Shown piece by piece: positions 41,814 through 63,036 of a stretch of DNA of 64,000 nt. How positions within the stretch are numbered: the first letter of the stretch is position 1; each line of letters starts with the position of its first letter. The notes below the pieces were generated by a model that was not told the origin of the DNA, ran no database searches, and saw only the letters and a list, made by a program, of their open reading frames with translations. The translations under genes and the position numbers were made by a program. Location: assembly GCF_011300455.1 (NCBI RefSeq), contig NZ_CP049869.1, forward strand, positions 2,197,501-2,261,500. The letters are read 5' to 3'. The stretch is from Sphingomonas piscis (GTDB lineage Bacteria; Pseudomonadota; Alphaproteobacteria; Sphingomonadales; Sphingomonadaceae).

Positions 41814-42339
41814 AAAACACAGGCGTGTTACAAGCAAGCTCGGGCAAGTTCCGCTTTCGCTGCGTCGCCGCCTCAAAGCGGAAGTTCCGCTTTCGACCCT
41901 TTGCGGACATTCAGCCAATGTCTGCAAACGACGCACTGCGTCCCCAATCCTTGGTTGAAAAGCAGCTTTTAACCATTGTCCGTCACAGCTTCGGGCTCGC
42001 TGAAGGTGTGTGAAAGATGAGGCTGGATCGTCGGTTTGCTGAGGGTGCACATGAGCTCGAAGCGCCCAAGAAGTCGTTCAAGAACCTCGCCGTAGAAAGA
42101 GATGAGAAGCTGGAGCGCCTCTGCGGTGAGCGTGCGGATCGCTTCGTGGGAAAACGCGCCGTCTCGATCGCACAGCTTGTTCTGCTCACCCGTATCTGGT
42201 GTCGCCTGCTATTTACACCTCTGATCAGGCTGAGACTTGAAGACGATGCGGAAGCAAAGCCAATCCGCAGATGGCTCGACAAGCGAACGTTTAGGTTGCG
42301 AAGCCCTCTTCACCAAGCCGCCTCGGTTCTTCGGATTGA
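41814..42339. other. Interval with a repeat copy and an unassigned open frame
   Basis: A hairpin TTCCGCTTT/AAAGCGGAA at 41849-41883 directly precedes the first copy of the regional repeat. A 145-codon frame at 42017-42451 has weak coding character (MRLDRRFAEGAHEL) and overlaps the next gene in another frame; I could not support it as a gene. Confidence 0.35.
41884..41940 (+). repeat. Regional repeat copy R1 (double-type, degenerate)
   Basis: GTTCCGCTTTCGACC, GCGGACATT and then GTCTGCAAACGACG show the two-hairpin form with changes in the second. First copy seen in the window from the left. Confidence 0.65.
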
Positions 42340-42894
42340 TCGTCGGTCAGATCCATTGGCCGGTTCGCGATTTGCTACGCTCCGCCGCATGGACCGGAAG
42401 GCCGCCAAGCTTGGCATTACCTGCGCCCCATTCCTGAACATGAGCGCGTAAAGCTACTGCGAGACGCAATCCATTTCGAGCAGAACCACCCCGACCGTCG
42501 CTATCGCCGCGAACAGCCGAACACTGCCGACCTGACTGACACGGGTCTTTGGCTTGCTGCCTATTCGTCTGATGGATCGCCTCTGGTGTTGGCTGTAACT
42601 CCGGTCTCCGGCAATGCCGCGTTGCTGCGGTATCTTCGAACCTTGGCATCGAACCAAGAGGCCACCCTAGCGCGCTATGCCATCACTTCCGAGCTAGTCC
42701 GCAGACTTGCTGCGATGAGGGTGAAATACCTCGTGGACAATGTCTCGCCACTCTCGCTTCCAACACCTCTGAGGCATTTTGCAACGATGGTGGGGTTCCG
42801 CATAGTTCGAGCAGAGTTGCAAACCTCACCCTCCGCGTTTCGAGCGGCGATGAGCCTCGCAAGCAGGGGTTTGCAGATCGGTTCGGCTATCTAA
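42340..42894 (+). pseudogene. Remnant of a GNAT-like hypothetical protein without a start codon
   Basis: An open frame of 184 codons reads RFAICYAPPHGPEGRQAWHY, LRPIPEHERVKLLRDAI, DTGLWLAAYSSDGSPLVLAV and LRYLRTLASNQEATLARYAI, a convincing protein with long hydrophobic strands and helices. There is no ATG, GTG or TTG until 42586, in the middle of the continuous region. Either the 5' end has been lost, a frameshift lies near 42340, or an unusual start is used. I recall similar unknown proteins in sphingomonads, but no function. Confidence 0.45.
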
Positions 42895-43092
42895 GGCTCA
42901 AGTACCGGCTTACACCCGCTGAGGCATTAGTCGGCGTAAGTATCGGGGTAGTGACGGTGCTAAGCTGGTTGCCTGTTTGCAAACGCGCTTAGGCGCCGTC
43001 GATATTGTCCGTTCTTTACATACGCCCGCTTCAACTCGCCCAAGCCTTCATCTAAGGTCGGCTTTGAACTCGCGCCCCTTGATAGGCGTCAG

Positions 43093-43188
43093 ATGCACAA
43101 CTCCAAGAAGGCGTTGCTCTTCCTGCTTGAGCTTGTTGTGGTTGCGGCTGCCTTGTGGGTGATCGTTGTGTCTGTGCGGCCGCCATAG
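43093..43188 (+). CDS. Possible 31-residue single-helix membrane protein
   Basis: The ATG is preceded by an AGG element seven bases upstream. The product has a short positively charged start (MHNSKKA) and one hydrophobic helix (LLFLLELVVVAAALWVIVV), ending in VRPP. Two further tiny membrane frames lie nearby at 43744 and 47355. No homology is known to me. Confidence 0.35.
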   Translation: MHNSKKALLFLLELVVVAAALWVIVVSVRPP

Positions 43189-43231
43189 GGTAGCCTCCAC
43201 CTGCAGCTGAGGACGGGTCCGAACTAGTAGC

Positions 43232-43262
43232 GAAGGTCTGCTACCGACCCGTTGCGGACATT
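43232..43262 (+). repeat. Regional repeat copy R2 (second half only)
   Basis: GTCTGC, loop TACCGACCCGTT, GCGGACATT. The first half is not recognisable upstream. Confidence 0.7.
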
Positions 43263-43316
43263 GGCTGGCGATCATTTGCGCGCCATACTGCGTCTGCCGA
43301 GGAGGGTAGACTGGGG

Positions 43317-43655
43317 ATGCGACTGCTGAAGTCTCTTGTGGCTTGGATGGACCGCGATTGGGAGGGTCGAAGCTACAATCCGCTCTTTGCCTTCGCTCAA
43401 AGGCTGGTGTGGGGCGTACCCATGATCGTTGCGCTCCTGCTAATGAGCCTGTTGGAAACCCTTGCTGTATCACGGGAAAGTTTCGTTGTGACCGCCCTGC
43501 TTATTTGCGGAGCGGTCGGCACCTTCGTGATGATGGGCGCATCAATATATCGCTGGATGGCGGGTTACAGCCGCAGCGCATTTCAGGAACAAGCGGCACA
43601 GGACTACCGTAGAAGTCGGGCTCGAAGTTGGCTACGGTTCGTTACTGGGCGCTGA
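43317..43655 (+). CDS. Small membrane protein with two or three helices
   Basis: 112 residues. Hydrophobic helices lie at about residues 27-47 (VWGVPMIVALLLMSLLETLA) and 53-80 (FVVTALLICGAVGTFVMMGAS); both ends are charged. No family recognised. A copy of the regional repeat begins on its stop codon. The gene lies in a run of small, unrelated membrane genes. Confidence 0.55.
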   Translation: MRLLKSLVAWMDRDWEGRSYNPLFAFAQRLVWGVPMIVALLLMSLLETLAVSRESFVVTALLICGAVGTFVMMGASIYRWMAGYSRSAFQEQAAQDYRRSRARSWLRFVTGR

Positions 43656-43718
43656 TGTCCGCTTTCCACCAGTTCCAGTTATTGGATGAAGGTCTGCAAA
43701 CGACCCATTGCAGACATT
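43655..43718 (+). repeat. Regional repeat copy R3 (double)
   Basis: Begins on the last base of the stop of the gene ending at 43655. The second hairpin is GTCTGC with GCAGAC, a compensatory T-A pair where most copies have C-G. Confidence 0.85.
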
Positions 43719-43743
43719 GGCCGATGCGGGCACCACCTGATTT

Positions 43744-43851
43744 ATGTTCGATTGGTTTGACCCGACCGTCCTTTTACCTTGGAAGGTTCAGGTCGGCTGC
43801 CTAGTCCTATTTGTCATCGCTGCAGCGCTGCTGTTACTGGTGATGCAGTAG
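43744..43851 (+). CDS. Possible 35-residue single-helix membrane protein
   Basis: The frame encodes MFDWFDPTVLLPWKV and then one hydrophobic helix (CLVLFVIAALLLLVM). It lies between two repeat copies. The ribosome site is weak, so this is an observation of a coding-like frame rather than a firm gene. Confidence 0.35.
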   Translation: MFDWFDPTVLLPWKVQVGCLVLFVIAAALLLLVMQ

Positions 43852-43859
43852 ACCGCCGG

Positions 43860-43885
43860 GTCTTCTAACGACCCGTTGCGGACAT
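43860..43885 (+). repeat. Regional repeat copy R4 (second half only, left arm weak)
   Basis: GTCTTC, loop with ACGACCCGTT, GCGGAC. The left arm no longer pairs well. It follows the tiny frame ending at 43851 by eight bases. Confidence 0.6.
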
Positions 43886-43980
43886 GCCGGGCAGCATGAT
43901 TGCTCACCGAACTCTCACCGCAAGCTCATGACATCTACCGCTGTTAGCGCGAGGACATCCGCCGCTGACTAGGGGAGTGC

Positions 43981-44370
43981 ATGGTGAGGCGACGTGGGTG
44001 CGCAATGGGTTGCGCAGTGGGTCTAGTGCTTCTGCTCGCAACGGGCGTCTGGCTCAACTTCGCACTGGCCTATGAACGAGAGCGAGCCGTGTCGCCTGAC
44101 GGCGAATGGCTGGCCATCGCCTATATCGACGGGACGCCGCTCACCGCCGAAAACGAGCGGGTGCACCTCTGGCGCTGGTGGCAACCTCGATTTGGGTGGC
44201 TGGGGTGCCAAGTTCTTGAAGCCAAGAACGAGTCTCCTACTCGGCTGCTTTGGCAGGGTAAGCGGTTGCACATTCAGCACGGCTTCCGTGCTCACGAATT
44301 AATAGCCGTTCGCGGCGGCTGCGGACCCGTGCAAGTGTCATTCGAGAAGAAGTTCAAGCCCTATGCCTAA
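43981..44370 (+). CDS. Hypothetical membrane-anchored exported protein
   Basis: 129 residues; AGGGGAG lies before the ATG. A short N-terminal helix (GCAVGLVLLLATGVWLNFALA) anchors a soluble outer part with VSPDGEWLAIAYIDGT and RVHLWRWWQPRFGW and three Cys. The outer part resembles single beta-propeller-like blades but is too short for a full propeller. The stop codon is overlapped by a repeat copy. Confidence 0.6.
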   Translation: MVRRRGCAMGCAVGLVLLLATGVWLNFALAYERERAVSPDGEWLAIAYIDGTPLTAENERVHLWRWWQPRFGWLGCQVLEAKNESPTRLLWQGKRLHIQHGFRAHELIAVRGGCGPVQVSFEKKFKPYA

Positions 44371-44433
44371 CGTCCGCTTTCCACCCGAAGCTGACGTTTA
44401 GCGAAGGTCTGCAATCGACCCGTTGCGGACATT
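44369..44433 (+). repeat. Regional repeat copy R5 (double)
   Basis: Starts inside the stop codon of the gene ending at 44370. First hairpin arm pair is decayed; the second is GTCTGC/GCGGAC with one G-U pair. Confidence 0.85.
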
Positions 44434-44860
44434 CGGCGCGTCTGAATGTTCTGCTCGCTTACGCACTCTGGCGACGACTGCCCGGCGAGGTGTAGCTCTT
44501 AACCTTCGGCGCGGTGAACCTGACGTGGAGGGGTTTGCAGATCTCGTCAGCGATCTAACGCTTAATTACCCGCTTCCCAGCCCGACTTATCTTCATTGAA
44601 GGTCGGCGGTTGACGTGCCGAGATTACATCTTCTGAACACGGGTAAGCTCGGCTGGCATGGCGAGGTCCGATCTAAGACTTGCCATCTCCGCCGACTTAA
44701 TGCGCCACTCGACAGCTTCCGCCGGGCGCTGCATAAAGCTTTGAATACGCCGACTAAACGTCCCAGACGATGGTAAACTAGCCGTTGACTCTGCCTTAGC
44801 CGCTGTTCACCTTGGCTGCATTGGCCGTTGTGAACGGTCCAGACGAATGTGGAGGATCAA
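44434..44860. other. Interval without a gene
   Basis: No gene is supported between the repeat at 44369-44433 and the protease start. A degenerate second-half repeat (AAGGTCGGCGGTTGACG near 44596) may be present. The serralysin promoter probably lies here but no clear boxes were recognised. Confidence 0.4.
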
Positions 44861-46519
44861 ATGGGGCGAGCACGTGACGCCGTAGTCGGCGCTACTCAGA
44901 ATTTTGGCGGTACAGGCGTATCTTCGGCGGCCGCAAGTGATGCGTTGCCGTTCCGACTTGAAGACTACGTAGGGATCGCAAATTGGAACGGAAAGCCAAT
45001 CTATGATCAGTCAGCCGTAATTGGTCAGATCGACAGCGGAGCTTTTCTGAACTCCAAGAATGGAGTCGTGACCTTCTCATTTTCGCACAAGCCAACGGGT
45101 CTCTACAACAATCCCAAGGAAGGCTTTCCCGAACCGGCCGGGTTCTCGCCTTTCTCAGCCGCAGAACAAGCAGTTGCTCGCCAAGCTATTCAACTATGGG
45201 ATGACCTAGTCCCTATCAAATTCGTTGAGAAGAACGGACAGGGTGCTGACATCCTTTTCGCAAACACCACCACAGGGCCAGCGCAGGCTTGGGCCTACTA
45301 CCCAGAAAGCAAGAAGTACTCCCATGTCAGTAGCGATGTTTGGACGGCTGATCCTACCGCTAACTGGACGAACGGCTGGCTGGGTTATGGCGACTACGGT
45401 CGCACCACGCTGGTCCACGAGCTAGGGCATACCCTCGGGCTAAGTCATCCAGGTGATTACAACTTCGGTGACGATTCTGACGGCGACGGTGAGCCTGATC
45501 CAATCACGTACACTGGCGACGCGTTCTATGCTCAGGACTCAAACCAATTTTCGATCATGTCGTATTTCTCTGAGCGAGAGACAGGTGCTCAGTCGATTAA
45601 CGTCTCAGTTGGGCTTCTGAATAATCCTCAGACGCCTCTGTTGCACGACATCCTGACCATACAGTCCAAGTACGGGGCGGACACATCGACACGGTCGGGC
45701 GACACTGTGTACTTTGCCAATTCCACCGCGGGGAACGCCGTTTACGACCTCAAAGCCAATCCCTTCCCAATGCTTTCAGTTTATGACGCGGGAGGAAACG
45801 ACACGTTCGATTTTTCAACCGCTAATTCCGGTGTCTTCATTGACTTGCGTGCAGGGTCATTCAGCTCCGCTACCGCTGGGTATCAAACGCTAGCGGAAGC
45901 AAATGCCGCAACTGAAGCTTTCAATGCCGTTACTGATGAAGACCAGGGCGACTTCGGGCTTTGGGACGCCGGCAGCTATGCCAGCTGGATCAGTACAGTC
46001 CAGTCGATCGGAGCAAGCCGAGTATTGAATGACACTGGCGTGAGCGGAGTAACCGCAACTTCGCACCGTAACATTTCGATCGCGTACAATACGGTGATCG
46101 AGAATGCAGTTGGTGGTTCTGCCCGCGATTATCTTTTGGGCAACGCAGTTTCCAACAAGCTGACCGGCAATGGCGGCAATGATGTCCTGGATGGCCTTGA
46201 CGGGAACGACGTCTACGCCGGTGGAGCGGGTGCCGATGAGTTCCGGATCAGCGGTGTTGGTGGAAACGACATGATCACTGACTTTGTCAGTGGCACTGAC
46301 AAGATTCGACTTTCCGAGATTGATGCAAATACAACGCTTGCAGGTAATCAGGCGTTTTCGGTGGGCGGATCAACGTTCACTAATGTTCCGGGCCAGCTGA
46401 TAAGTTATGGATCCGGTTCCAACCACTACCTTGCTGGCGACGTGGATGGGAACGGCATTGCCGATTTTACCATTCACCTTGGTTCAGCAACGGCACTTGC
46501 CACAGATATATTCATGTAA
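44861..46519 (+). CDS. Serralysin-type secreted zinc metalloprotease (M10B) with RTX repeats
   Basis: 552 residues from the ATG with GGAGG at the right distance; an upstream GTG would place the ribosome site inside the gene. The zinc motif HELGHTLGLSH begins at residue 186 and the Met-turn is SIMSYFSE. The C-terminal part has calcium-binding glycine-rich repeats (GNGGNDVLDGLDGNDVYAGG, about residues 438-457), then a VDGNGIADFTIHL stretch and a C-terminal region typical of type I secretion substrates. There is no signal peptide, as expected. No ABC transporter or inhibitor gene is adjacent. It digests proteins outside the cell. Confidence 0.9.
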   Translation: MGRARDAVVGATQNFGGTGVSSAAASDALPFRLEDYVGIANWNGKPIYDQSAVIGQIDSGAFLNSKNGVVTFSFSHKPTGLYNNPKEGFPEPAGFSPFSAAEQAVARQAIQLWDDLVPIKFVEKNGQGADILFANTTTGPAQAWAYYPESKKYSHVSSDVWTADPTANWTNGWLGYGDYGRTTLVHELGHTLGLSHPGDYNFGDDSDGDGEPDPITYTGDAFYAQDSNQFSIMSYFSERETGAQSINVSVGLLNNPQTPLLHDILTIQSKYGADTSTRSGDTVYFANSTAGNAVYDLKANPFPMLSVYDAGGNDTFDFSTANSGVFIDLRAGSFSSATAGYQTLAEANAATEAFNAVTDEDQGDFGLWDAGSYASWISTVQSIGASRVLNDTGVSGVTATSHRNISIAYNTVIENAVGGSARDYLLGNAVSNKLTGNGGNDVLDGLDGNDVYAGGAGADEFRISGVGGNDMITDFVSGTDKIRLSEIDANTTLAGNQAFSVGGSTFTNVPGQLISYGSGSNHYLAGDVDGNGIADFTIHLGSATALATDIFM

Positions 46520-46553
46520 CGCGAATTTCACCATCGTTGGTAGAGCAAGGAGG

Positions 46554-46577
46554 CCCGGCATCCCATTGGATGTCGGG
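46554..46577 (+). terminator. Hairpin after the serralysin gene
   Basis: CCCGGCATCC and GGATGTCGGG form a ten-pair stem (one G-U pair) with a CATT loop, 35 bases after the stop. There is only a short T-rich stretch after it, so termination strength is uncertain. Confidence 0.5.
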
Positions 46578-47354
46578 TTCGCCTTTCCACCGAGAAGCGA
46601 CCACCAGGTTCCCGCCTGAAGCTAAGCTTTCGTAAATTCGGGAGGAACTTGCCGTAGTAACCTTCGGCGAATTGCAGTAGGGATCGAGGGGAATATCCCG
46701 GTGAAAAGGTTTGTTGGTGCCACGCGGAGTGCCTGGAAGCCGAGAGTATGGAAGATTGCGGCCGAGCCCCCCGCAGCTTCGCCAATTCAGGATCGATAGG
46801 TTGCGAAAGCCTCATGCTGATGCTGCGCACCTCCGCGGTGAGTGTCGGCATGATCACCCTCTCACATTGGCGAATACCGTGAGCATTGGTAAAGTCGGTT
46901 ACCGATGCCGCATCTGTCACCGCGCCTACAATGGTCTGCAATGTCTTTTGCGGCCCATCTCGGTTAATGAAGGGCCGAGCTGAGTTCAGACGAACCGGGT
47001 TGATCAATCGAGACACAATGCGCAGGCTATGTCCACTTTCCACCCACTGCGGACCTTCAGTGACGGTCTGCCTTCGACCCAAGGCAGCGTTTAAGCAGCT
47101 CCAGTAAGTGGCCTGCCTTGTTTTCTAATGCCGGTTTTATGTCCTGGATTGCTTCGGTCGATCGTGGGCCAGCCAGCTCCGTCATCAGCACGCAGCGAGG
47201 GTAAAGGCCGACCATCCGCTCTCCACATTAACTGCGCATACTTTCCCACCTTTGCAGGCGGAAGTTCAGCTGTGCCTTCCGCTTTCAGCGAATATGCCTG
47301 GGGCGAGATTGTGGCGGTAACTAAGCGTTATAATCAAGTGGCTACGTCTGGAGC
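46578..47354. other. Long interval without a supported gene
   Basis: About 780 bases. Frames on both strands are short or lack start signals. The interval holds one repeat copy (47029-47092) and a weakly repeat-like stretch near 47205-47240. Part of it may be decayed coding sequence, since CFCGPSRLMKGRAEF-like stretches read open, but nothing is recognisable. Confidence 0.4.
47029..47092 (+). repeat. Regional repeat copy R6 (double, diverged)
   Basis: The second hairpin is CTGCCTT with AAGGCAG, a longer helix made of different bases from the consensus, again with pairing kept. It lies in a gene-poor interval. Confidence 0.7.
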
Positions 47355-50777: not shown

Positions 50778-50938
50778 CCGAAAATTCCCACGCAGACTTT
50801 GCGCATCGAGCACGTCTACGCGGCTGTGGTTTCGGACATGTTTATGCGAATGGTTGAGAGGCGTTAATCTTTCGGAGGAAACTCTTCTAAAGGTTCATAT
50901 CAGTCATTGCGTGTTTTCGCCCGCTGGGGAGGCGTGAA

Positions 50939-50966
50939 GGTCCGCTTTCCACCCATTGCGGACATT
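50939..50966 (+). repeat. Regional repeat copy R7 (single)
   Basis: GTCCGC, loop TTTCCACCCATT, GCGGACATT. It lies in the divergent gap between the TadG-like gene and the lipoprotein gene. Confidence 0.9.
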
Positions 50967-51048
50967 CCTCAAAGGCGCGAGAAGACGCCATGATTGTCCA
51001 CTCAGAGGATGAAACCGGCACCAGCCACTTAGACGGGCAGACCGCCTG

Positions 51049-51483
51049 GTGAAAAGTCTGGGCATCCTCTCATTTATGGTCGCAGGGCTCTTGCCACTCG
51101 CTTGCTGCTCTGCCGCAAAAAGCGTGCCCATCCTGGACACAGAGAAGTCAAAACTCACTAAGCTGAACGGTGATCAGATAGAGGCGATGTTTAACAAGAC
51201 GTGGAGTATTTCCATCCAAGAAGGCGAGGGGCCGCCATGGAGCAAGGACCGCGAGTTTTACATTCGAAACGCCCGCGACGTTCTCCAAGAGATCGTTGAT
51301 CGGTGTCAGCTAGGGCCGACCTACTTAGACCATGGAGACCATGGACTCGCCCACCTTTGGATCGAGGAAGCTCCTCTACCGCCTGAGAAGGTGAAGTGCA
51401 TCCAAGACTCTCAACGCCGTGGTATCGAGGTCATCCAGCCGTCGGCCTCGCCTATGGAACAGCATACTCCTGAGCAACGCTAG
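51049..51483 (+). CDS. Hypothetical lipoprotein
   Basis: 144 residues from a GTG. The signal peptide ends LACCSAA, and either Cys could be lipidated. The mature protein has a single domain with NGDQIEAMFNKTWSI, YIRNARDVLQEIVDRC and FWIEEAPLP-type sequence. No family recognised. A repeat copy begins one base after the stop codon. Confidence 0.6.
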   Translation: MKSLGILSFMVAGLLPLACCSAAKSVPILDTEKSKLTKLNGDQIEAMFNKTWSISIQEGEGPPWSKDREFYIRNARDVLQEIVDRCQLGPTYLDHGDHGLAHLWIEEAPLPPEKVKCIQDSQRRGIEVIQPSASPMEQHTPEQR

Positions 51484-51547
51484 CGTCCGCTTTCCACCCC
51501 AAGCGGTCGCCCGGCTGAAGGTCCGCCTTCGACCCATTGCGGACGTT
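51484..51547 (+). repeat. Regional repeat copy R8 (double)
   Basis: Begins one base after a TAG stop. Lies in a convergent gap. The second hairpin is GTCCGC/GCGGAC. Confidence 0.9.
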
Positions 51548-51632
51548 CCGAGCCACTATTCAATAAGGCCAGGATTGCTTCGGCCTCACTGCTCCGCATC
51601 CACACTGCCCCCCCGGCTTTGCGTGAGGCACG

Positions 51633-52082
51633 CTATCGACGGGTGAGCTGGATCATCACGCCCTCGCCGGCGTCAACCACGGTGCGTTGGCCGGGTTCGA
51701 GCTCGACGCTTCCGTGGAAACTGAAGTTCTCATCCGCCGGGCGTCGCCGGGCGCAGGGATCGTTATCGTCGTTCCCTATCTTGCGGTATTCGGAGTAACT
51801 GAAATAGACATAGGATTCTGGCCCACTGTCGTTTCGCTTCGAGAGATAAAGCGTAGTTTTGCGGCCTCCGGCCTCAATTTCGCCGCCCTCGCAGGCAGGT
51901 GGAAGTGCCTGCTCCGTCTCCAAAGTCGCATAACTTCCGCTGAAAGGGTCGATGCTGCCCTTCGAAATGAGTTCGCCGTCCTTCTCGACCCTAAAATCGA
52001 GCAAATAGGCGGGCTCCCCTGGAGACTGTGCAGCGGATTGCGCGGCAAGGCACAGATAGGACAGTGCAAATGCGCGCTTCAT
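51633..52082 (-). CDS. Exported protein 3 of a three-paralogue operon
   Basis: 149 residues with a signal peptide ending SAAQS. The mature sequence begins YLLDFRVEKDGELISKG and ends with VELEPGQRTVVDAGEGVMIQLTRR (given here in parts VELEPGQRTV and VMIQLTRR). Both ends recur in the two genes before it, so the three are diverged paralogues. Its start overlaps the previous stop by ATGA. It looks like a compact beta sandwich in the periplasm; the function is unknown. Confidence 0.7.
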   Translation of the reverse strand: MKRAFALSYLCLAAQSAAQSPGEPAYLLDFRVEKDGELISKGSIDPFSGSYATLETEQALPPACEGGEIEAGGRKTTLYLSKRNDSGPESYVYFSYSEYRKIGNDDNDPCARRRPADENFSFHGSVELEPGQRTVVDAGEGVMIQLTRR

Positions 52083-52627
52083 GGCCGTGTGAGCCTGATC
52101 CTGTAGCCGACATAATCTGGCAAGGTGATGGTCTGCCCAGGCAGGATCTCAAATTCGAAGTTCATCTCGACAGTTCGACGAGCGGCCTCGTCGCAGCTTG
52201 GACCGGCCGGACCGATGCCCTTGGCGGACGCTTCGTAGTTGAATGCGAGATTGAACCGGGCGGGATCGGGCGACCGATGCAGATAGGGGTTGATGCGGAT
52301 CCGGAGTTCGGACGGACTGTTGAGTTCAAGCGGAAGAGACTCGGGGTGTCCCGAGCCGATGATGATTTCGCAATCGTCGGGCGTTTCCCACCCGGACCTC
52401 AGCTTGATCGAGTCACCCCTTGCATCCAGCTGCCCACGCCAAAAAAACGCCTGGTCATGCTGAATATCGATGTCCAGTAGAACGGGCCTCTTCGCCCCTT
52501 CGGGATCCGGCATCCGCCGGCTCCCGAAGGGGGCTGGTGCGGAACGCACCTCGCCAGTGGAGGTTTGTGCCCCAGACGGCTCGGCGCTCGCCAGCAGTAC
52601 AGCGGGCAGAAGCGCAAATCGCCTCAT
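52079..52627 (-). CDS. Exported protein 2 of a three-paralogue operon
   Basis: 182 residues with a signal peptide ending PSGAQT. A Pro/Arg-rich linker precedes VLLDIDIQHDQAFFWRGQL, which matches the start of the other two. The end has EILPGQTITLPDY and YRIRLTRP. Two Cys are present (DDCEI and SCDEAARR). It is coupled by ATGA overlaps to both neighbours. Confidence 0.7.
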   Translation of the reverse strand: MRRFALLPAVLLASAEPSGAQTSTGEVRSAPAPFGSRRMPDPEGAKRPVLLDIDIQHDQAFFWRGQLDARGDSIKLRSGWETPDDCEIIIGSGHPESLPLELNSPSELRIRINPYLHRSPDPARFNLAFNYEASAKGIGPAGPSCDEAARRTVEMNFEFEILPGQTITLPDYVGYRIRLTRP

Positions 52628-53127
52628 TTGCGGACGATCCTGAGGAACATTCCGTTATCACCGTAAAGTGTCAGCGGATTGTCGAAGTTCATATCCACTG
52701 TGCGCGACACCTTGGAAGCGAACTGGGTTCGTGGAAATGCCAGGCACGAAGGAGATTCGACACCCAGCGGCATCCCTGAATATGTGCGCCATTCGCCACT
52801 CACCCGCATGGGCCTGATGGCCTTGCGCCCGCGTTCGACCGGATTGAGCGCTTCAAGCAGGATTGTCACCCCTTCGCCCGCAGCGGCCCGGCGGATCGCA
52901 CCACGACCGTCGGTGCAAAAGTCGGTACCGATGATAGGCCAAGCGAGCGAATGTCGGGCAATCACTCCTGGGGAGACGCCAAGTTCTGTTCGCGCAAGAA
53001 CCTCGCCGTTCCTGCCGATCTCAGCCAAATAGGTTTGAATCACCGGACGCTGCTGCATCGCCTGAACCGCAGGCGGTGCGCTGCAGCCAACCGCCATTGC
53101 AAGCAGCAAGGTCACGCGTTGTGCCAC
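52624..53127 (-). CDS. Exported protein 1 of a three-paralogue operon
   Basis: 167 residues; the N-terminal 22 residues form a signal peptide, and VGCSAPP may be a lipobox. The mature part begins VIQTYLAEIGRNGEVLARTEL and ends with FDNPLTLYGDNGMFLRIVRK (exactly twenty residues). It contains Cys at DFCTDGRG and SCLAFP. It is the first gene of the operon, and a repeat copy lies in its promoter region at 53208. Confidence 0.7.
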   Translation of the reverse strand: MAQRVTLLLAMAVGCSAPPAVQAMQQRPVIQTYLAEIGRNGEVLARTELGVSPGVIARHSLAWPIIGTDFCTDGRGAIRRAAAGEGVTILLEALNPVERGRKAIRPMRVSGEWRTYSGMPLGVESPSCLAFPRTQFASKVSRTVDMNFDNPLTLYGDNGMFLRIVRK

Positions 53128-53207
53128 AGGAATCTCATCGTTCAGTCGGATCTGCCGTTTTCAAGCCCTGCAACCCTGACTACCGACGCAATATGAACGA
53201 ATAGATT

Positions 53208-53235
53208 ACGTCCGCTTTCCACCCATTGCGGACTT
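53208..53235 (+). repeat. Regional repeat copy R9 (single)
   Basis: Lies in a divergent gap, between the three-paralogue operon and the Rap1a-like gene. Consensus arms and loop. Confidence 0.9.
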
Positions 53236-53295
53236 CCGACATTTCTCTCATGCCTCAACATGCTCGGGCTCTGAAGTCCTTTGGGGAGGCCTCTC

Positions 53296-53670
53296 ATGTT
53301 AGTCGCTCTGGTCACTGTTAGCTTAATGTCAGCCGCGGAAGCCGCTCCACCCCCACATTTAGGAGCGTACATTCCGAACTCGCAGCTGCTTAGCTGGTGC
53401 AAACATAAGCAGGTCGGCGACTGGGAAAATTGTTCCTCGTTCATCGACGGCGTAATTCAGGCGACCGGTATGCAGGACACTAAGTGGCCCAAAGGCCCAA
53501 TTGCGCTGCCGATCCCGAAAACAGGGCGCGACGTTGTACCCATCGTCGTCCAGTATCTCGAGAAGCTAGGTTCGGAGGATATGTCCCGTCCCGCGGTGAG
53601 ATCTGTCTATGAAGCCGTGGTGAGCGCTTACCCCTACAAGAGCGACGCGGCTCCTATGCCTTCCAATTAG
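53296..53670 (+). CDS. Rap1a/Tai-like exported protein
   Basis: 124 residues from the ATG preceded by GGGGAGG; an in-frame TTG upstream would include that site. The signal peptide ends AEAAPPP. The mature pattern LLSWCKHKQVGDWENCSSFIDGVI, then PIPKTGRDVVPIVVQYLEKL and a final helical stretch, follows the Rap1a immunity protein fold, whose Cys pair and helices are kept. Rap1a-type proteins neutralise type VI effector amidases in Serratia. No effector is adjacent, so an immunity role is only inferred. Confidence 0.6.
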   Translation: MLVALVTVSLMSAAEAAPPPHLGAYIPNSQLLSWCKHKQVGDWENCSSFIDGVIQATGMQDTKWPKGPIALPIPKTGRDVVPIVVQYLEKLGSEDMSRPAVRSVYEAVVSAYPYKSDAAPMPSN

Positions 53671-53683
53671 TAGAGGGAAACGC

Positions 53684-53747
53684 AACGTCCGCTTCCCACC
53701 CTTAGCGGGCTTCAGCTGGAGGTCGGCAATCGACCCATTGCAGACGC
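53684..53747 (+). repeat. Regional repeat copy R10 (double)
   Basis: Lies in a convergent gap and ends directly at the end of the next gene. The second hairpin is GTCGGC with GCAGAC, with a mismatch. Confidence 0.85.
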
Positions 53748-54134
53748 TCAGGCTCGCTCGGGCGCGAGCCTGCCGAACTGCCGCATCGCCTCGTGTGGGA
53801 AGCGCGTCCTAAATCGTCGTAGCTCCGAACCAGCATCTGCATCGAGCCTAGCCGCATAAGCCAGTGCAGTCCGGTAGCCGATCATGTCACCTCGGTTCCG
53901 GTGCGTGATCGCGAGATTATATGCCGCTATCGCGTCGCCGCGCCGTGCTTGCTGTCGGAGAAGCCGAATAGCTTCAGCCTCAGAAACGTAGTCGCTCAGG
54001 ACGGTCACTGCTGGGGAGAAGCGTCGAACTGCCAGCTTCCGGATTATAGGCAAGGCGTGACCTGCCGCGCGGCCCTCAAGGATGTCGAGGGCACGAGCAT
54101 AGAGCTTCCAGTTAGGATCGGACTCGCCAACCAT
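53748..54134 (-). CDS. Hypothetical Sel1/TPR-like helical protein
   Basis: 128 residues from the ATG beginning MVGESDPNW; longer readings run into the repeat at 54169. Paired helices (SEAEAIRLLRQQARRGDAIA, then AYNLAITHRNRGDMIGYRT) resemble Sel1-type repeats that bind other proteins. No signal peptide. The gene ends exactly where a double repeat copy begins. Confidence 0.5.
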   Translation of the reverse strand: MVGESDPNWKLYARALDILEGRAAGHALPIIRKLAVRRFSPAVTVLSDYVSEAEAIRLLRQQARRGDAIAAYNLAITHRNRGDMIGYRTALAYAARLDADAGSELRRFRTRFPHEAMRQFGRLAPERA

Positions 54135-54168
54135 AGTCGCCCTGTTAGCCGAGAAGCGACTTGCCAGG

Positions 54169-54198
54169 AATGTCCGCTTTCCATCCGTTGCGGACATT
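54169..54198 (+). repeat. Regional repeat copy R11 (single)
   Basis: Divergent gap. AATGTCCGC, loop TTTCCATCCGTT, GCGGACATT. Confidence 0.9.
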
Positions 54199-54222
54199 GA
54201 GAAGAACCTGCACCTATCCACT

Positions 54223-54456
54223 ATGAGCGACTTCGATTGGCTTGCGGATGCGGTGATTGTGGCAGAAGGGCGAGACGAGGATCACGCTGTGCCCCAGTTC
54301 GTCTTTCGAAGCGTAGGCGAGGCCTGCCGGTACTTGGAGCACTGGTGGGTGGAGAATGGCGAGGGCTTCGCCTTTAGTGCTGCCGGACACCGCCTTAGCC
54401 TCGGCGTCGCCGCAAACGGTCGCGTGATTGTTGTTGATAGAGTTGACTATCCCTAA
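54223..54456 (+). CDS. Small hypothetical protein
   Basis: 77 residues. The sequence SDFDWLADAVIVAEGRDEDH and FRSVGEACRYLEHWWVENGEGFA has a helix-sheet layout and many aromatic residues. It resembles small immunity-like proteins that occur alone in genomes, but I cannot name the family. It is flanked by repeat copies. Confidence 0.5.
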   Translation: MSDFDWLADAVIVAEGRDEDHAVPQFVFRSVGEACRYLEHWWVENGEGFAFSAAGHRLSLGVAANGRVIVVDRVDYP

Positions 54457-54625
54457 TGGAGCCGAGATTGTCCAAGATTGGCTCCGTAGCCTCGCTGAGT
54501 CCGTCCTTGAGGCGAGAAGGACTAAGGCTCAAAAGGGCAAAGCAACACTGGCGAGCTTCGAAGAGTCAGGACAGCTCCCTCGATCCGCCGAGGGGTTAAT
54601 CGCCTACATTGGGTTCCAGCAATAA
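54428..54625 (+). CDS. Possible small hypothetical protein overlapping the preceding gene
   Basis: 65 residues from a TTG inside the end of the preceding gene (29-base overlap). The product is helical with a basic middle (EARRTKAQKGKATLASFEES). It is followed by a repeat that starts on its stop codon, as for other genes here, which mildly supports it as real. Confidence 0.4.
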   Translation: MLLIELTIPNGAEIVQDWLRSLAESVLEARRTKAQKGKATLASFEESGQLPRSAEGLIAYIGFQQ

Positions 54626-54687
54626 ACGTCCGCTTTCCACCCCTTCACCACGTCAGCGAAGGTCTGCAACCGACCCAAAGCGGACGT
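54625..54687 (+). repeat. Regional repeat copy R12 (double)
   Basis: Starts on the last base of a TAA stop, convergent gap. The second hairpin is GTCTGC/GCGGAC with one G-U pair. Confidence 0.9.
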
Positions 54688-54690
54688 CGG

Positions 54691-54963
54691 TTAGAGCCAA
54701 GCTGGGACGTCGAACGCTTCACCGGCGGCGTCCTTGGGAGGTGGCCCGATGTTGGTGACGCACCCTTCCTGCCAGCCAGTTAGGCCCAGTTTGGCTGAGT
54801 TGATTTGAAAGCCTTCAGGATAATCGCGAAAGCCCGGTTTGTCCTTGAGGGTCTCTACGACGTTTAAGGCATCCGCCTCCGACGCATAGATGCCAATGTG
54901 AAGCTCCGTGTCTTCACGATGTTCGTATTCGCGCACGAACCATAGATCGTAAACGGTGTCCAT
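54691..54963 (-). CDS. Small DUF7336-like protein
   Basis: 90 residues. The layout VYDLWFVREYEHREDTELHIGIYASEADA (in parts YDLWFVREYE and HIGIYASEADA), then LKDKPGFRDYPEGFQI and WQEGCVT, matches a family of small bacterial proteins I remember as DUF7336, found in toxin-immunity-type neighbourhoods. No signal peptide. It stands alone between two repeats. Confidence 0.55.
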   Translation of the reverse strand: MDTVYDLWFVREYEHREDTELHIGIYASEADALNVVETLKDKPGFRDYPEGFQINSAKLGLTGWQEGCVTNIGPPPKDAAGEAFDVPAWL

Positions 54964-54997
54964 GCTCGGAGGCTACCAGCTTGGATGAGAAAGAGGC

Positions 54998-55027
54998 AAC
55001 GTCCGCTTACGACCCATTGCGGACATT
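54998..55027 (+). repeat. Regional repeat copy R13 (single, hybrid loop)
   Basis: Divergent gap. The loop TTACGACCCATT combines features of the loops of the first and second half-units, as expected of a deletion between them. Confidence 0.85.
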
Positions 55028-55079
55028 AGACATCGGCAGGTAAACTTAAGCTAGTTCGTTAGCGTCGGGAGGCAGAGTG

Positions 55080-55280
55080 ATGTTCCGCTTAACTGGTATC
55101 CGCATGGCCATCGCAGGCTTAGCTGCCGGTTTGCTGATTGCAGTGCTCTACCTACGAGCAGCGCCAAACCTCGCCGAAAGCCTTGACCACCTTCGAGACG
55201 GCGCACTGCTACTCGTCATCGTGAGCATTGCACTGGCGCTCTGGCAGGCGAAAACTGCAAGAACACGACAGCGGGTCTAG
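55080..55280 (+). CDS. Small membrane protein with two helices
   Basis: 66 residues; GGGAGG precedes the ATG by about eight bases. Two hydrophobic helices (IAGLAAGLLIAVLYLRA and GALLLVIVSIALALWQA) are joined by an acidic loop. A repeat begins on the stop codon. Unknown function. Confidence 0.5.
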   Translation: MFRLTGIRMAIAGLAAGLLIAVLYLRAAPNLAESLDHLRDGALLLVIVSIALALWQAKTARTRQRV

Positions 55281-55307
55281 GTCCGCTTTCCACCCATTGC
55301 GGACGTT
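55280..55307 (+). repeat. Regional repeat copy R14 (single)
   Basis: Begins on the last base of a TAG stop. It is the only convergent gap with a single unit. Confidence 0.9.
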
Positions 55308-55313
55308 CGTATT

Positions 55314-55922
55314 TCAGAAGGCGAGCATGCCAACAAGCCTCCGGTGGGAGCCGCGATCAACGCACACCGAAACAGGATACCAGGGTTTACTGGCTGGCAG
55401 GCGATCATTGTTCAACGCGCAACACGCTAAAGCATCCGGTAATAGCCCAAACAGCGCCCATTCATTCAGGCGCGCTTCGTCGGATTCCAAACCGCCGCCA
55501 ATGGTGTCCATTGGAAAGTAGCCATCGTAAGACGCGGATACCCAGCCGTTTCCCGTGCACACATCCCAGCCGACATGGATCAGCTCATCTCTGAGCTTTG
55601 AGTAAAGATCTGCGTTCGGAGCAGTTTGCACGTGCTCCAAATAGGCTCGGTGCACTGCGCGGAAGCAGCAGAACAAACCTTGGCTTTCAATCTCCGGAAG
55701 AGCACGGCGATCTGCGATCTGGAGGAACCCGCCATACTTTGGGCTTGAGTTGCCTAGTTCGCCCGTAACCAGCGCAGCTATCGTTGAAGGCAGAGGACAA
55801 GCGGGCTCCCAAACGCCATCAGAGGCGGACAGCAAGCGCTTCTGGCCCGCAGCACGTGGCGCGCCGCAAATCATCACGGACGCGATATGCACATCGGCCG
55901 GTGGCGCTTGTTCGTGATTCAT
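55314..55922 (-). CDS. Hypothetical protein
   Basis: 202 residues without a signal peptide. Contains LYSKLRDELIHVGWDVCTGNGWVSASYDGYF and ends PWYPVSVCVDRG. It has six Cys, and many aromatic residues. No family recognised. Repeats flank it on both sides. Confidence 0.5.
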   Translation of the reverse strand: MNHEQAPPADVHIASVMICGAPRAAGQKRLLSASDGVWEPACPLPSTIAALVTGELGNSSPKYGGFLQIADRRALPEIESQGLFCCFRAVHRAYLEHVQTAPNADLYSKLRDELIHVGWDVCTGNGWVSASYDGYFPMDTIGGGLESDEARLNEWALFGLLPDALACCALNNDRLPASKPWYPVSVCVDRGSHRRLVGMLAF

Positions 55923-55948
55923 CCATCTATGTTGCGGTTGCGGCAGTT

Positions 55949-55978
55949 AATGTCCGCTTTCCACCCATTGCGAACATT
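55949..55978 (+). repeat. Regional repeat copy R15 (single)
   Basis: Divergent gap. One mismatch in the right arm (GCGAACATT). Confidence 0.9.
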
Positions 55979-56002
55979 CGGGAGCGTAGGTAGCCTCTTT
56001 CA

Positions 56003-56227
56003 ATGAGGTGGTTAAGGCTCTTCTCTTACACAGTCTTCTACTGGACGTGCGCCGTTCTGATTGTGGGTGTTATTGCCTTCGCTCATGGCGACTGTTGGGC
56101 TGACGGCACGGAGATGCAAACCGCTCAATGCGCTGACGAGAAGCGCTCGCTGATGTTCGCGTGTTTAGCTCTAGCCATAGTCCCATATCTATTCATCGTA
56201 AGAAGGACACTTCGACTCAGCCGGTGA
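56003..56227 (+). CDS. Small membrane protein with two helices
   Basis: 74 residues. Two hydrophobic helices (YTVFYWTCAVLIVGVIAFA and MFACLALAIVPYLFIVRR) surround a loop with Cys (GDCWADGT and AQCADEK), possibly a disulfide in the periplasm. Unknown function. Confidence 0.5.
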   Translation: MRWLRLFSYTVFYWTCAVLIVGVIAFAHGDCWADGTEMQTAQCADEKRSLMFACLALAIVPYLFIVRRTLRLSR

Positions 56228-56245
56228 AGCGTTCACCTCGTGGTC

Positions 56246-56310
56246 AATGTCCGCTTTCCACCCATCCCGGACGTTCGCTGAACGTCTGCAATTGACCCAA
56301 AGCAGACATT
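56246..56310 (+). repeat. Regional repeat copy R16 (double)
   Basis: Between two genes of the same direction. The second hairpin is GTCTGC/GCAGAC, a compensated pair. Confidence 0.9.
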
Positions 56311-56425
56311 CGGCGGTACTCGGCTGCGGCGGCACGTCAATTTTCAGCGTACCCTCACAACGCGCTCACAACTTCAATGCGAGATGCCGATACGAGCGCG
56401 GCAGTTAAGCATCGTGAGTTCGAGT

Positions 56426-56851
56426 ATGACCACCATCGCTCAGACTGGTTCGTGGATTGGGCTAGTTCTACTGCTGTTTGGCATCCTAACGCCGATTGCA
56501 GCTCTGATCGTGCTGCCGTTCCAAGCTGTGATTGTACAACCTGATCCTGCACGTGGAAGCATACTTGAGCCGGCTTCGACCACGCTGAATGATGCAGGCG
56601 TGGGGCTCAGCTTTCTGGCTTGGCCACTCTACGCGCTTCTGACGTGCTCGGCATTCCTCGGTGAGATGAACACGCTCTATTCCGACGCCGGCTTAGGCTA
56701 CATCTACATCACAGTTGGTATGCCGGCATTTTTCGTCGGATGGCTCGGACTCATCTTCTACTCGAGCGTTCGACCGGCTCGCACTGAACTGTTGTTCGGC
56801 GCGCTTGGAGCCGCGGTGCTGATCTCAATTGGCTATGGAAGTATCAATTGA
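56426..56851 (+). CDS. Membrane protein with four helices
   Basis: 141 residues from the ATG beginning MTTIAQTG; other starts lie upstream. Four hydrophobic helices are visible, and the loops are short. No family recognised. It is the only gene in this stretch that has the same orientation as the preceding one. Confidence 0.55.
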   Translation: MTTIAQTGSWIGLVLLLFGILTPIAALIVLPFQAVIVQPDPARGSILEPASTTLNDAGVGLSFLAWPLYALLTCSAFLGEMNTLYSDAGLGYIYITVGMPAFFVGWLGLIFYSSVRPARTELLFGALGAAVLISIGYGSIN

Positions 56852-56862
56852 GGCGTCTGCAA

Positions 56863-56926
56863 AACGTCCGCTTTCCACCCGTTTCAGACGCTCGCCTAAG
56901 GTCGGCAATCGACCCAATGCGGACAT
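56863..56926 (+). repeat. Regional repeat copy R17 (double)
   Basis: Convergent gap before the truncated haemoglobin gene. The second half is GTCGGC with GCGGAC. Confidence 0.88.
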
Positions 56927-59338: not shown

Positions 59339-59484
59339 GAAAACCGATTACCACATAGATCAGGAGAGGACTTACCGGCTTTCTCCCGCCTTTCGCAGGT
59401 GAAATTTTCGCAAGTCCTTATCGAGTTGCCTCGTATTGGTGCCGTTTCTCAAATCTAACAGTGCAGCAACGTGGGGCCTCAGTG

Positions 59485-59892
59485 ATGCATCAGCTAGTTT
59501 ACATCTCGACTGCACGCGCACTCCCCTGTGCTCGTGATCTGGAGCAAATTCTCTCGGTCTCTCGGGTAAACAATGCACGTGACGGTGTGACCGGACTGCT
59601 TGTGTCCGGTGGCAATCGTTTCCTGCAGGCTCTGGAAGGGCCGACTGCTAAGGTCGTCGCAACATACGATCGCATACAGGCTGATACCCGCCACTTTGCA
59701 TGTGTAGTGCTGACGTCCCGGTCAATCGACCAGCGCGTGTTCGGTTGTTGGGAAATGTCCTATGAGCGGGCTCGGAGTACCGATGCGACGGCAATCGAGG
59801 AAGCTGTCAGGCAACTCACCGAGGGGGTGCACGACAAGGGATTGCAGGCTGAGTTCCGAACATTTGCGGAGCTGAATGCACGGCGCTCATAA
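59485..59892 (+). CDS. BLUF-domain blue-light sensor
   Basis: 135 residues from the ATG beginning MHQLVYISTA; upstream codons are read but unlikely. The flavin-binding residues are conserved: Tyr in QLVYIS, Asn in RVNNARDGVTGLLV and Gln in RFLQALEGP, followed by the Trp of GCWEMSYE. BLUF proteins sense blue light through FAD and control cyclic di-GMP enzymes or regulators through contacts. Here no output domain is present, so it acts through a partner; PilZ is the nearest candidate. A double repeat follows. Confidence 0.9.
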   Translation: MHQLVYISTARALPCARDLEQILSVSRVNNARDGVTGLLVSGGNRFLQALEGPTAKVVATYDRIQADTRHFACVVLTSRSIDQRVFGCWEMSYERARSTDATAIEEAVRQLTEGVHDKGLQAEFRTFAELNARRS

Positions 59893-59931: not shown

Positions 59932-59990
59932 GTCGGCTTTCCACCCATTCGAGACGTTTAGCGAAGGTCTGCAATCGACCCATTGCGGAC
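59932..59990 (+). repeat. Regional repeat copy R18 (double)
   Basis: Convergent gap between the BLUF gene and mreB. The first arm is GTCGGC; the second hairpin is GTCTGC/GCGGAC. Confidence 0.88.
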
Positions 59991-62621: not shown

Positions 62622-62686
62622 AACGTCCGCTTTCCATCCGTTCCGGTCGTTCAGCCAATGTCGGACTATGACCCCTTGCAGACATT
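62622..62686 (+). repeat. Regional repeat copy R19 (double)
   Basis: Lies after the TonB-like gene and before a co-directional gene. The second half is diverged (GTCGGAC with GCAGAC). Confidence 0.8.
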
Positions 62687-63008: not shown

Positions 63009-63036
63009 CGTCCGCTTTCCACCCATTGCGGACATT
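63009..63036 (+). repeat. Regional repeat copy R20 (single)
   Basis: Begins immediately after a TAG stop codon; arms and loop match the consensus exactly. Confidence 0.92.

Follow-up and report, generated by a model that had tools for sequence, protein, structure and literature searches.

The window analysed here is a stretch of 64,000 nucleotides from Sphingomonas piscis (positions 2197501-2261500 of its single-contig 2.72-Mb genome). In its right-hand part, short genes facing in alternating directions are separated by copies of one structured repeat, and it is this repeat array, probably a series of recombination sites with gene cassettes between them, that was investigated. The first-pass annotation of this DNA had described a repeat in every gap from 51.0 to 57.4 kb, always in the same direction. 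The uniform direction was borne out, as all 30 sites found in the window are on the + strand. A repeat is indeed present between successive transcription units but is missing from the gaps within three tandem genes at 51633-53127; these three - strand genes all lie inside one site-to-site unit. Two of them have a common 23-bp stretch of 83% identity, and they may therefore be paralogues. A Pfam scan of the array from 51.0 to 56.9 kb left 12 of the 13 cassette proteins without a match, the thirteenth being a Rap1a-type immunity protein, and none of ten cassette proteins tested had a PADLOC defence match. No Rfam match was obtained for window positions 40000-64000 at E values up to 1. The features are listed in Table 1.

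Table 1. Sites and cassette genes of the array, in window coordinates.
Feature	Position	Strand	Description	Gap
Upstream part of the same array	41885..47089	+	Sites at 41885, 43236, 43657/43692, 43860, 44372/44407, 47031/47066	
R7	50940..50963	+	Single core site, GTCCGCTTT-CCACCC-ATTGCGGAC	Divergent
Gene	51049..51483	+	No Pfam match; stop codon 1 bp from R8	
R8	51485..51544	+	Double: 51485 (CCACCC) and 51521 (CGACCC), spacing 36 bp	Convergent
Three tandem genes	51633..53127	-	51633-52082, 52079-52627, 52624-53127; no Pfam match	
R9	53210..53233	+	Single core site	Divergent
Gene	53296..53670	+	Rap1a immunity protein family PF18602 (E 2.4e-8)	
R10	53687..53745	+	Double: 53687 (CCACCC) and 53722 (CGACCC)	Convergent
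Gene	53748..54134	-	No Pfam match; stop codon 2 bp from R10	
R11	54172..54195	+	Single core site, spacer CCATCC	Divergent
Two short overlapping open reading frames	54223..54625	+	54223-54456, 54428-54625; no Pfam match	
R12	54628..54685	+	Double: 54628 (CCACCC) and 54662 (CGACCC), spacing 34 bp	Convergent
Gene	54691..54963	-	No Pfam match	
R13	55001..55024	+	Single core site, spacer CGACCC	Divergent
Gene	55077..55280	+	No Pfam match; membrane-like by eye; stop codon immediately adjacent to R14	
R14	55281..55304	+	Single core site	Convergent (exception named in the first-pass annotation)
Gene	55314..55922	-	No Pfam match	
R15	55952..55975	+	Single core site	Divergent
Gene	56003..56227	+	No Pfam match; membrane-like by eye	
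R16	56249..56307	+	Double: 56249 (CCACCC) and 56284 (TGACCC)	Tandem
Gene	56384..56851	+	No Pfam match; membrane-like by eye	
R17	56866..56924	+	Double: 56866 (CCACCC) and 56901 (CGACCC)	Convergent
R18	59932..59990	+	Double: 59932 and 59967	Convergent
Double site	62625..62683	+	62625 and 62660	
Single core site	63010..63033	+	Last one found in the array	

Sites were located with a 36-nt matrix trained on the same copies. It yielded 134 oriented sites in the clusters fetched from the genome and none in the reversed sequence, so that chance is excluded. A pattern for the left half of the repeat was found at 92 places in the whole genome, grouped in a few clusters, against 15 in a backward control. 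Ten of the 92 fall outside the fetched stretches, each with two mismatches, indicating that these stretches contain nearly all sites; one place at 2196152 (locus L055) was fetched and excluded from the counts. The matrix consensus, GCGAAYGTCCGCTTT-CSACCC-ATTGCGGACRTTCGC, consists of inverted arms of ~12-15 bp flanking an asymmetric 6-bp spacer. Inverted arms around a short centre are the form of tyrosine-recombinase core sites such as dif or lox, and the asymmetry of the centre gives the site a direction. The 38 double units are two such sites, nearly always exactly 35 bp apart (range 24-36), with the spacer CCACCC in the first site of 31 and CGACCC in the second site of 30. The worst-conserved arm of a double is the right arm of its first site (0.76, against 0.88-0.93 for the other three). 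Double units are best explained as a spacer-bounded filler, or as a composite site of two core sites ~35 bp apart, and not as an element specific to one kind of gap.

This bears on the earlier proposal that single units occupy divergent gaps and double units convergent ones. In the window the description is accurate: the five divergent gaps named (R7, R9, R11, R13, R15) hold singles, and the convergent gaps R8, R10, R12, R17 and R18 hold doubles, with R14 as the exception. Gap types were tabulated with a simple codon-usage gene caller made for this analysis, which missed the short + strand gene at 56003-56227, so that the gap of R16 was classed as divergent instead of tandem; 90 of 95 site groups were entered, four lying inside a called gene and one lacking a neighbour in its stretch. 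For the window array the table gives five convergent and two divergent doubles against one and six singles (Fisher p = 0.10). With all fetched clusters taken together, convergent gaps hold 12 doubles and 15 singles, divergent gaps 11 and 14, and tandem gaps 14 and 24 (p = 1.0 for convergent versus divergent). Thus the association is a local pattern and does not hold genome-wide.

The same data speak to the view that the repeats are REP/BIME-like palindromes (repetitive extragenic palindromes or bacterial interspersed mosaic elements) or intrinsic terminators that lie between genes and have no part in gene movement. They form hairpins, are intergenic and are often close to stop codons. A terminator role was rejected, however, as five terminator-like sites were found against a shuffle mean of 6.0, none of the five was on a repeat, and convergent gaps were not favoured; the insulator or terminator reading offered by the first-pass annotation is accordingly not supported. 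A search for Y1 transposases (PF01797, the REP-associated tyrosine transposase family) gave no match in this genome, and the same search was positive in five of 14 control genomes. Together with the single polarity per cluster and the spacer breakpoints described below, neither of which it predicts, these results largely contradict the palindrome or terminator view and make it highly improbable.

Array polarity was compared with a random arrangement. Among 133 sites of the fetched clusters, the orientation switches between neighbours nine times, whereas 2000 shuffles gave a mean of 65 switches and a minimum of 40. The genes do not follow suit: the gene immediately downstream of a site group runs with the site in 49 of 90 groups and against it in 41. 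No remnant recombinase was found at a polarity flip of this genome at 2474.9-2479.9 kb, where the open reading frames resemble uvrC, recO and apaG (named by eye). Ordinary RecA-dependent recombination between repeats might in principle shuffle the genes and, given that repeats within an array are direct, would likewise leave the polarity intact. The repeats are however only 24-65 bp long, with random arm pairs only ~60% identical; moreover, the visible breakpoints are at the spacer, and a recombinase gene at the polarity flip of related arrays would be left without explanation. RecA-dependent shuffling is thus considered very unlikely.

To locate these breakpoints, 274 site-to-site units from this genome and its relatives were compared. 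Orientation relative to the site was kept in 25 of 26 homologous pairs, the exception being unit 5860 of locus L206 versus unit 5504 of L210. Within 15 bp, six pairs aligned up to both sites, four up to one site and 16 to neither. The breakpoint set comprised 14 boundaries from the eight pairs whose alignment reaches a site at 78% identity or more, and 13 of the 14 diverge at the spacer. Over the 14 boundaries, identity was 0.91 in the cassette body, 0.93 in the cassette-side arm, 0.72 in the arm beyond the spacer and 0.55 in the flank; the two arms differ with a Wilcoxon p of 0.0014 (0.89 versus 0.70 and p = 0.022 without gaps). A 378-bp unit present in three copies in this genome, with 97-98% identity and flanked by singles or doubles, displays the same break: on one side the copies are identical up to the spacer and then different, and on the other side they are different before the spacer and agree after it. 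The pattern recurs in a pair within locus L219 and in a pair (94%) between genomes G016 and G020. Across 62 bp, R10 (53684-53745) is 97% identical to a copy at genome position 530072-530133.

Cassettes are also common to different species. In G020 (94%) and G092 (80%), counterparts of the cassettes in the G016 array stand between different flanking sequences, two cassettes are common to G016 and G020 with different DNA between them, and a G016 segment adjoining a site is inverted in G070, across a polarity flip. From the spacer breakpoints and the kept orientation we infer that the genes behave like site-specifically mobile cassettes. The likeness to gene-cassette arrays drawn in the first-pass annotation is accordingly well founded, in view of the spacer boundaries where visible, the homologous units with different flanks in the same or other species, and the uniform polarity.

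Gene cassettes raise the question of a degraded chromosomal integron, i.e. a CALIN (cluster of attC sites lacking an integron integrase) with divergent attC sites. Genes mostly of no known family, one polarity per array and structured sites all agree with this. Crossover of attC sites in the terminal R' box leaves the right arm with the upstream gene. Here, in contrast, in the pairs that align as far as a site, homology ends at the inner spacer, and the right arm travels with the downstream gene, which upholds the earlier statement that the repeat is not an obvious attC and largely contradicts the CALIN. As also noted before, no integron integrase is visible: the TIGR02249 profile gave four weak matches in this genome and none over cut-off, in a search without a positive control, as 14 control genomes likewise had none over cut-off. 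A degraded integron is scarcely credible on these grounds.

Candidates for the recombinase were sought among relatives with PF00589. In the genus sample of 71 genomes, short tyrosine recombinases of ~200 residues (~207) were found, several beside repeats, and 33 genomes contained a total of 42 long uninterrupted matches (E < 1e-95). Two copies scored 64.9 and 79.7 bits with PF00589, placing them in the family, and no more than ~40 residues precede the catalytic domain. In 11 copies compared, R58, K86, H155, R158 and Y190 were present in all and H181 in ten (Asp in one), residues to which we assign the catalytic roles. An AlphaFold2 model had a mean predicted local distance difference test score (pLDDT) of 79.7, with XerA, XerH and Cre as the best Foldseek structural matches.

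The sites around the recombinase gene were examined for 20 of the 42 long matches, fetched by recombinase position; in all, 35 of the 42 were examined. To the left, 57 sites were on the + and 12 on the - strand, and to the right 16 and 54, respectively (Fisher p = 7e-13, where sites within one locus are not independent). Without L208 and L214, whose sites had been seen previously, the counts were 39/12 versus 15/49 (p = 1e-8, with the same dependence). Six loci flip perfectly (L206, L209, L210, L213, L214, L220) and two nearly so (L204, L208). A further 15 copies were chosen partly for nearby repeats, and among these the same inward layout was seen in G016 (L109), G021 (two), G009 (two) and G014. 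In L104 and L107, + sites occur on just one side, and further out the sites of L104 are mixed. The strand of the recombinase gene itself varies among loci.

The short recombinase could alternatively be a passenger cassette, with XerC/XerD acting on dif-like sites that flank the cassettes, as in Acinetobacter pdif modules. The arm-spacer-arm layout with its 6-bp centre is dif-like, and many sites occur in genomes that lack any long copy of this recombinase. A passenger, however, would not be expected at the polarity flip in many loci, nor beside similar sites in other bacterial classes, and XerCD as the responsible enzyme therefore appears unlikely, though less so than the other alternatives.

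Some loci differ in their spacers. L201, L202 and L203 have hardly any CSACCC sites, and a match to the arms only revealed the spacer CGGCCA (or TGGCCG) ~40-80 bp from the gene; this recombinase branch may use another spacer. In L135 and in L118/L119 (G060), TGACCC and TAGCCA/TGGCTA spacers are mixed in one locus with one recombinase.

In this genome the short family is represented by one relative, at 555676-556306, which is frameshifted and split across two reading frames. A - site is located ~110 bp beyond it, + sites are on its left with the nearest 14 kb off, and 1.7 Mb of the contig separate it from the window array. A sequencing error is a possible source of the split frame. Because the gene is broken, the arrays of this genome are probably frozen remnants, and would no longer be active or be active only with help from elsewhere. 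The mechanism that the first-pass annotation left open has thus gained a candidate enzyme in relatives, although a broken one here. Longer phage-type integrases near three arrays of this genome (511545-512831, 1372259-1373395 and 2261567-2262646) were rejected as array recombinases and taken for ordinary island integrases, since they have 359-428 residues and another sequence type and the third adjoins a tRNA-Arg.

Several side observations concern the array and its surroundings. A gene for a BLUF blue-light sensor (PF04940) lies at 59461-59892, between array sites. Immediately beyond the window's right edge, where the array ends, a phage-type integrase of 359 residues (2261567-2262733) stands directly beside tRNA-Arg(ccg), and probably marks a separate genomic island. 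Translations of the repeat (NVRNGWKAD, NVRFPPIAN and MSAFHPSRTFA) form false ends of the open reading frames 50904-51158, 55784-55993 and 56247-56408, and such peptides recur as spurious termini of database proteins. The arrays of the relatives G013 and G032 have the appearance of orphan, CALIN-like arrays.

A scan of one genome per species gave at least 585 confirmed relatives of the recombinase, of which 80 loci from Alpha-, Beta- and Gammaproteobacteria or unclassified Proteobacteria were kept. Three of the 80 are from Sphingomonas (L121-L123), two of them identical in DNA to L107 and L214, and were left out. In the remaining 77, outside the genus group, an arms-only match was present within 500 bp of the gene in 22, and in none with the reversed control (12 versus none at a stricter threshold). 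Spacers vary between lineages: a sphingomonad has ATCCCG, an acidiferrobacterium ATACAC/ATACTG and Massilia TGGCCG/CGACCC. In Dyella sp. OK004 (L152), 17 sites with the spacer CGACCC lie left of the gene, reading GGGTCG in 16 and GGGTAG in one on the + strand; they are all of one polarity, opposite to that in Sphingomonas. The family is large, with E <= 1e-20 for 7,999 among the best 8,000 candidates scored. At 80% or more query coverage, relatives were found in 349 plasmid records, the best place being at least 60% identical in 86, but in only three phage records.

The site anatomy, the uniform polarity, the spacer breakpoints in those pairs that reach the spacer, the cassettes common to several species and the position of the recombinase at many of the polarity flips, all apparent from sequence, point to one explanation. 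It is quite probable that the repeats are core sites of a site-specific tyrosine recombinase, that the DNA between them is a mobile cassette, and that the short recombinase is the most likely enzyme. A cassette would be cut within its two bounding spacers and joined through a compatible spacer to another site of the same polarity, with the freed cassette probably being a circle. The enzyme acting on the sites would most likely be the ~207-residue recombinase encoded between two inward-pointing half-arrays in related species. As its gene lies between two inward-pointing sites, both flanks could receive cassettes, which would accumulate on either side of it. Joining at same-polarity sites would lead to uniform arrays in which genes are fixed relative to the sites and unrelated genes face either way, and an inversion between the flanks would preserve this pattern.

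A number of results weigh against this explanation, in which recombination is deduced from sequence. Of the 26 homologous pairs, 16 fail to reach a site in alignment, and in one of these (unit 12989 of L109 versus unit 10913 of L221, 94% over 1049 bp) the similarity stops inside the unit. One of the 14 boundaries is reversed (unit 16024 of L109 versus unit 9129 of L222), three pairs of the breakpoint evidence derive from a single unit present in three copies, and beyond the spacer the arms (0.70 without gaps) are still more alike than random arm pairs (0.60). Matrix sites are absent from four of the 20 recombinase loci (L202, L203, L211, L215), eight loci are one-sided, mixed or reversed (L201, L205, L207, L212, L216, L217, L218, L219), and among the further copies sites are scarce or absent near L101, L102, L103, L108, L113 and L114. 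Recombinase presence is only weakly related to site number in 37 genomes (counts by hand; median 19 versus 12.5, p = 0.087), and G013 and G032, with 64 and 88 half-site pattern hits, have no long match to the short recombinase. The copy of this genome is broken or misassembled, with its left + sites at a distance. Finally, de novo palindrome recurrence in 75 of the 80 distant loci (those of at least 6 kb) gave no signal, with three loci having one or more against 12 of 356 control windows; the identity demanded by this test was probably too strict for such diverged sites.

More broadly, the arrays could represent a separate gene-capture platform across Proteobacteria, a proposal to which we would give slightly under an even chance. 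Such a platform would comprise a recombinase of the catalytic domain only, two inward core sites, double-stranded cassettes, mirror-image arrays, and one arm sequence with lineage-specific 6-bp spacers as compatibility codes, and would render an integron-like service. If so, alphaproteobacterial 'hypothetical' genes with GTCCGC palindromes at their ends would be its cassettes. Integrons are the textbook way in which bacteria collect single genes. They are extremely rare in Alphaproteobacteria, according to one report (PMC9024848). A second, unrelated cassette system there, if true, would account for a large set of small genes not yet placed, and would provide a small recombinase with a spacer that may serve as a compatibility code. 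Among the titles and abstracts listed in searches of open-licence literature, none described these sites or this array type, which is not proof of absence, and the papers found to contain a site word dealt with unrelated subjects, judged by title.

Among known systems, the Acinetobacter pdif (xrs) modules are similar in that genes are flanked by core sites with a 6-bp centre and inverted arms. According to one account (PMC11705084), these modules are XerCD-dependent, their flanking pairs are mostly inverted or have unlike centres, and those tested were without excision. The sites described here are, in contrast, direct with a conserved centre, the arrays are chromosomal, and in many relatives a dedicated recombinase occupies the centre. 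Short tyrosine recombinases of the FimB/FimE type, of ~200 residues, and shufflons invert flanked DNA and switch one or a few fixed segments. The recombinase described here is of the same short size and would likewise invert flanked DNA, but it is accompanied by dozens of direct sites with gene contents that differ between species. GInt islands are tyrosine-recombinase islands with varied cargo (PMC5385486); they differ in that three integrase genes and a helix-loop-helix gene form an operon and the island moves as a whole. A functional comparison can be made with integrons and CALINs, which likewise have small single genes of mostly no known family, sites of one polarity, and, in integrons, a tyrosine recombinase beside the array. 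Unlike in integrons, the recombinase is short and not IntI (of two copies scanned, one scored 24 bits against a cut-off of 265 and the other had no match), the break is in the inner 6-bp spacer and not at a terminal GTT, the genes face both ways, and half-arrays lie on both sides of the recombinase gene. The system would work like an integron, yet it fails two defining tests of one, the IntI integrase and the attC crossover.

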